From positions 1 through 36,192 of the forward strand of contig JACQFT010000038.1 of NCBI GenBank assembly GCA_016199925.1: a stretch of DNA of 36,192 nucleotides, read 5' to 3'. How positions within the stretch are numbered: the first letter of the stretch is position 1; the number at the start of each line of letters is the position of its first letter. The notes under the pieces are model-generated. The model was not told the origin of the DNA, made no database searches, and worked only from the letters and a program-made list of their open reading frames with translations. This stretch comes from Opitutia bacterium (GTDB lineage: Bacteria; Verrucomicrobiota; Verrucomicrobiia; Opitutales; Opitutaceae). Shown in pieces: positions 9,999 to 21,277 of the stretch. The position numbers and the translations under genes were made by a program.

Positions 9999-11486
9999 CT
10001 ACCCGCCGGCCGCCCGCACGAACTCTCCGATGATGCCGCCGAACGAGCCGTTCGTGAAAAAGACCACGAGCCTCGGCCTGCCCGTCACCGGCAGTGTGTG
10101 CGCCGCGAGTTGCTCCAACACCGCCGCGTTCGTCGGTGCCGCGTGCGCGCCGACGCCCTGCGCGGCGAGGAGTTCGCACACCGCGGCCGGATCGAACCGC
10201 TCGTCGGGCTTGATCCGCTCGGCGCGGTTGACTGCGCCGACAAAGACTTCATCCGCGAGCGCGAGCGCCCGCAGGAAGCCCGCTTGCATCGCCCGGGAAC
10301 ACGCCGTGTTGCTGCGCGGCTCAAACACCGCCGTGAGCACCCGGTCGGGAAACCGGTTCCGGAGCGACTGCAGCGTCTCGGCCAGCGCCGTCGGGTGATG
10401 GCCGAAATCCTCGACGATCTTGAGCTGCGGCGTGTCCAGCAGCAGTTCCTGCCGGCGTCTCACCCCGCGGAATTTCGCGAGGGCCGCAAGATTCAGCGCC
10501 GTCGGCTCTGCGACCGGTAGGGCGAATCCTCCGGATGTGCCGCGATTGACCGACGGCTCACCGGGACGGTTCGCCCGACCCTCAAGCGCCAGCCCCGCGG
10601 CGCAGGCCGCCATTGCGGCGTTGCGGGCGTTGAAGAGTCCGGACTGCGTCCACTGCACCTCGGTCCAGAGCGCGCCCCGCCAGAGCAACTTGAAACTCGC
10701 GCCGGCCGCCGTCTCGGCAAAATCGGCGATGCGCAGGTCGTTGCCCTCGCCGGTGCCCACGCGAACGACGCGCGTCCAGCCGAGCGGGCCGAGCGCGGCG
10801 AGGTTGGCGTCGTCGCCGTTGAGCACGATCCAGCCGTTGCGCGGCACGATGCGCGTCAGGTGGAAAAACGTTCGCTGCACGTCCTGCAGGTCGCGGAAGA
10901 TGTCGACGTGGTCGAACTCAAGATTGTTCAGCACCGCGATGTGCGGCGCGTAGTGGATGAACTTGCTGCGCTTGTCGAAGAACGCGCTGTCGTATTCGTC
11001 GCCCTCGATCACGAACGGATCGGCCGCCGTTCCGAGATGGCTGCCGACGGGCGGGTCCCGCGGCACGCCGCCGATGAGAAAACCCGGATCGCGGCCGTTC
11101 TCGCGCAGGAGAAACGCCGTGAGCGCCGTCGTGGTCGTCTTGCCGTGCGTGCCAGCGATAACGACATTCTTGCGGCCCTTGAGCACGAAATCCGCGAGCA
11201 ACGCCGGCAGCGACGTGAAGGGGAACGCGCGCGTGTCGAGCAGCCACTCGACCTCGGGATTGCCGCGTGACATGGCGTTGCCGATGACGACGAGGTCGGG
11301 CGCGAGTTGCGCCAGCCGCGCGGCGTCGTAACCCTCGTGCAGGGTGATGCCAGCCTGCGCGAGCACCATGCTCATCGGCGGATAGACGCCGGTGTCGGCG
11401 CCGAGCACCTCGTGCCCGGCCGCGCGCGCGAGCAACGCCGCGTTGCCCATCGCCGTCCCGCAAATGCCCATGAAGTAGATTTTCAT
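9999..11486 (-). CDS. mpl: UDP-N-acetylmuramate:L-alanyl-gamma-D-glutamyl-meso-diaminopimelate ligase
   Basis: MKIYFMGICGTAMGNAALLARAAGHEVLGADTGVYPPMSMVLAQAGI...VVIAGTHGKTTTTALTAFLL...VIEGDEYDSAFFDKRSKFIHY...LNNLEFDHVDIF. Confidence 0.9.
   Translation of the reverse strand: MKIYFMGICGTAMGNAALLARAAGHEVLGADTGVYPPMSMVLAQAGITLHEGYDAARLAQLAPDLVVIGNAMSRGNPEVEWLLDTRAFPFTSLPALLADFVLKGRKNVVIAGTHGKTTTTALTAFLLRENGRDPGFLIGGVPRDPPVGSHLGTAADPFVIEGDEYDSAFFDKRSKFIHYAPHIAVLNNLEFDHVDIFRDLQDVQRTFFHLTRIVPRNGWIVLNGDDANLAALGPLGWTRVVRVGTGEGNDLRIADFAETAAGASFKLLWRGALWTEVQWTQSGLFNARNAAMAACAAGLALEGRANRPGEPSVNRGTSGGFALPVAEPTALNLAALAKFRGVRRRQELLLDTPQLKIVEDFGHHPTALAETLQSLRNRFPDRVLTAVFEPRSNTACSRAMQAGFLRALALADEVFVGAVNRAERIKPDERFDPAAVCELLAAQGVGAHAAPTNAAVLEQLAAHTLPVTGRPRLVVFFTNGSFGGIIGEFVRAAGG
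10516..10580. repeat. 65-bp palindromic element inside the mpl coding sequence
   Basis: Ends GGTAGGGCGAA/TTCGCCCGACC are inverted repeats; core (minus strand) GCCGTCGGTCAATCGCGGCAC matches the intergenic element at 17330-17395. Confidence 0.7.
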
Positions 11487-15232: not shown

Positions 15233-15321
15233 CGCGCCATGTGACGCGGCGTGCCGCGGCGTGGCAACGAGTTTTCGGCCAACGCCAGCGTGTCGCGCCC
15301 ACGACGGATTCTTCGTCTGTC

Positions 15322-15391
15322 GTAGCGGCCGGCGTCCCTGCCTGCTGTGCTCTCGCGACCGAACTCGGCAGGCAGGGACGCCTGCCGCTAC
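15322..15391. repeat. 70-bp palindromic element, 24-bp arms
   Basis: GTAGCGGCCGGCGTCCCTGCCTGC ... GCAGGCAGGGACGCCTGCCGCTAC; arms match 23/24 around a 22-nt centre. Confidence 0.8.
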
Positions 15392-17329: not shown

Positions 17330-17395
17330 GTAGGGGCCGACGCTCGTCGGCGCGCCGTCGGTCGCTTGCGGCACGGCCACCAGGGCCGGCCCCAC
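17330..17395. repeat. 66-bp palindromic element, intergenic copy
   Basis: GTAGGGGCCGACGCTCGTCGGCGCGCCGTCGGTCGCTTGCGGCACGGCCACCAGGGCCGGCCCCAC; same core and same arm lengths as the element inside mpl. Confidence 0.7.
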
Positions 17396-17403
17396 ATTCG
17401 AAT

Positions 17404-21170: not shown

Positions 21171-21277
21171 GGGTTCAATATCTCGAAGCTAGCTTCGGCT
21201 CGGTTGGACGGTTGTGGGAGCGTGCTGGCACGCGACTCAGTGTGGCGGGCGAGTCGCGACCGAGATCGCTCCCACGA
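21171..21277. repeat. REPIN-like composite element, copy B, inverted relative to copy A
   Basis: Minus strand: TCGTGGGAGCGATCTCGGTCGCGACTCGCCCGCCACACTGAGTCGCGTGCCAGCACGCTCCCACA then CCAACCGAGCCGAAGCTAGCTTCGAGATATTGAACCC; both parts align with 615-717. Confidence 0.8.

Follow-up and report, generated by a model that had tools for sequence, protein, structure and literature searches.

A GTAG-tagged palindromic repeat dimer lies in frame within mpl, in a loop entered by several palindrome families across Opitutaceae

The palindromic element within mpl

In the window, the 36,192-nucleotide stretch of Opitutaceae DNA analysed here, the minus strand carries at 9999–11486 the gene mpl, which encodes UDP-N-acetylmuramate:L-alanyl-gamma-D-glutamyl-meso-diaminopimelate ligase (495 aa, insert included). 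Its 495 codons contain no internal stop, and the frame runs unbroken through a 65-bp hairpin with inverted ends (GGTAGGGCGAA / TTCGCCCGACC), which the first-pass annotation had placed exactly, at 10516–10580. This feature is a GTAG-tagged REP dimer, REPIN-like, in which two inverted REPs form one hairpin with a folding energy of -36.7 kcal/mol (z-score of the insert -2.1 against dinucleotide shuffles). Specifically, unit 1 (GGTAGGGCGAATCCTCCGGATGTGCCG; 10516–10542, plus strand) is delimited by its family consensus, GGTAGGGCGAACCSTCCSGGTGAGCCG, and keeps an intact 5′ GTAG tag, and the inverted unit 2 (10554–10580, minus strand) has the single mutated tag of this copy, GTCG for GTAG at its outer end on the coding strand. 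In the Mpl frame the tag change turns AGG into CGG, Arg in both cases. Read on the minus strand, the dimer codes for GRANRPGEPSVNRGTSGGFALP, residues 303–324 of Mpl, which sit between Mur_ligase_M and Mur_ligase_C of a protein composed of Mur_ligase, Mur_ligase_M and Mur_ligase_C domains. The intact frame and the conserved domains suggest that the insert is translated and that Mpl is active.

The comparison set for Mpl comprised 57 related genomes and 80 named contigs; some rows are one genome reached twice, and identical rows were merged for the tree (96 different rows). One short linker length is common to 67 of the 108 aligned Mpl proteins, in which the segment is missing. The same-genus Mpl (L047, equal in sequence to L068) reads GLALHPENPTQLNLDCLFLFRGVKRRQE without insert, and it is grouped with the window Mpl at support 99 in a tree built without the linker. 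The extra stretch of product that had been noticed on first inspection is indeed absent from the same-genus protein and from most Mpl; its size had been put at 24–29 aa, and the net gain is 22 codons (66 nt, a multiple of three). The alignment to the same-genus DNA is too diverged at the junctions to reveal a target duplication or the exact junction.

In an AlphaFold2 model of Mpl (35 sequences, mean pLDDT 81), residues 304–323 have pLDDT values below 50 and form part of a loop that joins helix 283–301 and helix 333–338; the solved structures nearest to Mpl are 3hn7 and 3eag. The model predicts the 22-residue insert to be disordered.

A dispersed repeat family and its copies inside genes

The mpl element belongs to a dispersed family, here family A: BLAST against the 3.79-Mb genome (264 contigs) gives 67 matches, with a best non-self E value of 9e-13, spread over no fewer than about 40 places; the counts are lower bounds, as 40 of the 93 candidates were scored. 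Across the 40 places the consensus unit is followed by a spacer of 0–20 nt and then by an inverted unit ending in CTACC, and 34 delimited copies, 53–77 nt long, show the head-to-head GTAG...CTAC layout. Family A thus has the unpaired tag (GTAG, or GTGG and the like) at one end of a short stem-loop, the dispersed copies and the head-to-head dimers that characterise the GTAG-tagged REP superfamily.

The first-pass annotation had equated the mpl element with another palindrome in the window, at 17330–17395. That element, delimited here as 17330–17397, belongs to a second GTAG family, GTAGGGGCCGACGCTCGTCGGC, which the genome carries at about 40 places: the mpl query misses it even at E ≤ 10, and none of the roughly 40 places retrieved by either element is shared with the other. 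Because the two sets of places are disjoint, the two elements represent two separate GTAG-tagged families.

Further palindromes were observed in the window. A REP, TGTGGGAGCG(A/T)GCTTGC(T/A)CGCGA, occurs at 615–637 and 21213–21235 and has 82 exact matches genome-wide; one of its forms, GTGGGAGCGAGCTTGCTCGCGA, matches the PF8 REP of Pseudomonas letter for letter (PMC3686654, Table 1), a case of one REP shared between phyla. Two 66-nt arms, at 616–681 and 21210–21275, are 85% complementary. Additionally, a 70-bp near-perfect GTAG...CTAC hairpin at 15322–15391 (-57 kcal/mol), a further REP dimer, adjoins the downstream side of the frame ending at 15244, and similar REPs adjoin a Y1_Tnp gene on contig C240.

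The genome has seven Y1_Tnp genes. Two RAYTs (on C240 and C96) adjoin other GTAG REPs, and none of the seven adjoins a family-A copy, the nearest lying about 1.8 kb off, on C32, in a draft genome of 264 contigs that is about 89% complete and from which a cognate RAYT may be missing. Since family A lacks an adjacent RAYT, we use the label REPIN-like rather than REPIN. For other systems, the portions of the literature available to us establish that the Y1 transposases known as RAYTs recognise GTAG REPs and cleave them, with trans mobilisation as the presumed mode for REPINs (PMC3733652, PMC3116915). With RAYTs near other GTAG REPs and none beside family A, we infer by analogy that a RAYT (Y1) transposase would act on the GTAG ends of family A and mobilise it in trans.

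Seven of the 40 family-A places are inside genes, across six genes. These are mpl (one copy), mfd (two copies), the genes for an HrpA-type helicase and an adenine deaminase, in both of which the copy lies between domains, and those for a NuoG-like protein and a family 31 glycosidase, with one copy within each. Several long frames across other copies (for example on C20, C213 and C10) lack any Pfam domain and were left out of the gene count. Measured from GTAG to CTAC, the length is a multiple of three in 5 of 6 full intragenic copies, compared with 6 among the 28 other copies (Fisher p=0.008). The full intragenic copies are also shorter (61 versus 70.5 nt elsewhere, p=0.003). Both samples are small, and some of the 28 may themselves be intragenic. 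The notion that family A is coding-compatible by design was dropped, because open frames per copy are not enriched (mean 3.4 of 6, versus 3.8 in shuffles). As the copies are no more open than shuffles, those that appear coding-compatible are survivors of selection, and it is selection after insertion that accounts for the frame-multiple and shorter lengths of the intragenic copies. The initial proposal of a coding-compatible mobile palindrome analogous to the Rickettsia RPEs is borne out: the family is dispersed, its mpl copy keeps the frame and falls in a loop predicted to be disordered, the corresponding site of the sister genome is empty, and at least five other genes contain the element.

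Reuse of the Mpl loop by several palindrome families

Mpl inserts in Opitutaceae concentrate in one loop between two helices, immediately before FRGV(K/R)RRQ. Nearly all insertions of at least 15 aa among the 108 homologs fall at core columns 301–307, the sole exception being an 18-aa Pro-rich stretch at column 445. The inserts can be assigned to palindrome families that recur elsewhere in genomes. Family A (GTAGGGCGA) is present in the window, in L084 and, decayed, in L076 and L096, and it recurs in genomes G063 and G064. Family B (GTAGGTCGGG...CCCGACCTAC; L086, L094 and L122) has 40 or more scored matches per genome in three genomes, and family C (GGTGGAGCGCGTTG...CAACGCGCTCCACC; L033/L070 and L124) has dozens in G018 and G025. 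Family D (GGTGGAGCG(T/C)GACCTCCGG; L032/L087 and L092) recurs in G061, and family E (GGGCGAAGCCTCCGGCTGAG; L043) is found at about five places in G003. Family F, in L048 at a contig end, reads ACATGTCAAC...GTTGACATGT, after which a C/D-like element begins, and occurs at four places in G025. Families C and D have their outer 9 nt in common and may be related, so the count is given as five or six families. L069 was considered for family D and dropped, since its genome gives no D matches; the Mpl tree still labels it as D.

The mean folding z-scores of the inserts of families A to E range from -1.6 to -7.9 against dinucleotide shuffles, compared with +0.26 for short linkers and -0.26 for the other long linkers, of eleven Mpl homologs; L076 and L096 are individually near zero. 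Those eleven long linkers, having no excess folding, suit a reading in which the mpl insert is an ordinary low-complexity linker expansion that merely looks palindromic. The copy number of family A refutes it: with about 39 or more other family places, E values down to 9e-13 and a z-score of -2.1 for the window insert, its probability is negligible.

On the Mpl tree there are ten insert/no-insert changes, which may be gains or losses, and the starred branches by themselves force at least two changes for each of families A, B, C and D. Because separate families need separate insertions, five or six insertions are a floor. The loop inserts are polyphyletic, and the same Mpl loop has been entered independently by unrelated hairpins in other Opitutaceae genera. 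A single ancient insertion in the mpl loop of Opitutaceae, later diverged into unlike palindromes, would explain why every insert lies within a few codons in one loop, and the junction common to the B-type inserts of L086, L094 and L122 indicates that the pattern may be partly inherited. We nevertheless consider it very improbable, given that each insert matches its own repeat family with several to many copies per genome, that sister taxa have empty loops along with the forced changes in four families, and that empty-loop lineages separate the window family-A insert from those of L076, L084 and L096.

A parallel pattern is seen in Mfd. The Mfd of the window genome contains two family-A copies; other GTAG palindromes occupy the first position in L185 (GGTAGGGCGCGGACTCCG...) and the second in L174 (TGTAGGGCGGGGTCTCC...), both from other genera, and the same-genus Mfd is without the second insert. 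In the mfd on contig C165 of G000 (L003), two REP inserts of one family lie about 150 residues apart and encode the near-identical peptides GRANPPGEP.NGSAGRFALP. The same-genus mfd (L186) has a 49-residue insertion near Mfd core column 257.

The concentration of inserts could instead reflect target-site preference, for a DNA sequence or for single-strandedness, rather than tolerance of the protein. The insertions span only about seven codons, the B-type inserts have a common flank, GGACGATCC, and REPIN movement is thought to be akin to IS200/IS605 single-strand targeting (PMC3116915). This account is unlikely in view of the several unrelated families in the loop, the repetition of the pattern at two other loops, in Mfd, and the copies between domains of HrpA and adenine deaminase. 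Across the Mpl, Mfd, HrpA and adenine deaminase sites, the common factor is protein architecture, not one DNA motif.

The insert could also be mildly functional, having been co-opted as a linker that modulates Mpl domain closure or as an mRNA hairpin that tunes translation, in line with the long loops kept at the Mpl site in some lineages and with the stable hairpin in the coding strand. Co-option is quite unlikely, because the same-family inserts of L076, L084 and L096 differ in length and sequence, the standard short linker prevails in 67 of 108 Mpl proteins and the segment is without structure in the model.

Taken together, we propose, with a probability of roughly 0.88, that a non-autonomous GTAG-tagged REP dimer (REPIN-like) transposed into mpl, in a solvent-exposed loop that would separate the final helices of the middle domain, and was retained owing to its frame-preserving length and open frame. 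The insert would now be translated as a disordered 22-residue stretch, probably neutral for Mpl activity, and the loop, on this account, is hit repeatedly because an insert there costs the protein little, those elsewhere in Mpl being purged by selection. More tentatively, and with somewhat less than even confidence, a few interdomain loops of Opitutaceae housekeeping proteins (Mpl, Mfd) may be permanent landing sites, in which unrelated mobile hairpins insert time and again, are translated and decay to ordinary disordered linkers, so that mobile DNA would be a main source of new linker sequence in these proteins. The Opitutaceae Mpl loop provides a system, still evolving, for tracing how mobile DNA becomes protein linker.

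Relation to known translated and dispersed palindromes

The analogy to RPEs stands as far as it goes, and the class to which the mpl element belongs is GTAG-REP/REPIN, which the available text of Di Nocera et al. (2013; PMC3733652) already reports inside genes of Opitutus terrae. According to that text, translated GTAG REPs exist, the O. terrae genome is the richest in intragenic GTAG repeats, helicase and repair genes are among the targets, and loops and linkers are suggested as neutral sites. The O. terrae repeats resemble the present element in the GTAG tag, the head-to-head dimer, translated inserts of 20–30 aa and membership of the same bacterial family. In the same portion of that study, same-site insertion is mentioned only for recB of two Xanthomonas, whereas here several palindrome families occupy the same loop in different genera.

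REPINs (Bertels and Rainey 2011, PMC3116915) are likewise dispersed inverted REP pairs that form one hairpin, and the present genome has RAYTs; unlike family A, which has copies in genes and no RAYT alongside, they were described from extragenic space (PMC3116915).

The Rickettsia RPEs and Wolbachia WPEs are also in-frame palindromes whose peptides lie in solvent-exposed regions and recur at the same site of orthologs (PMC3767692), and the mpl element, like an RPE, is an in-frame insertion into a pre-existing gene with an apparently translated product. RPEs are 100–150 bp long (PMC3767692), as against 65 bp here, and RPE-4 and RPE-6 are CGTC-tagged in the available text of PMC3733652, family A being GTAG-tagged. 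We liken the element to RPEs by description and do not file it as one. For RPEs, the literature is open on whether repeated occupation of one protein site reflects a hotspot or one diverged old insertion (PMC3767692), the latter being the preferred reading for RPE-4, RPE-6 and RPE-7 in Rickettsia. Unlike these, the Opitutaceae loop inserts are of separate origin: separate families with their own genomic copies, polyphyly and empty sister sites together identify the Opitutaceae Mpl loop as a hotspot. Translated GTAG REPs in O. terrae were thus already known in 2013, as the available text of that report documents (PMC3733652), and what the present analysis adds is direct evidence that one loop is reused by unrelated palindromes.
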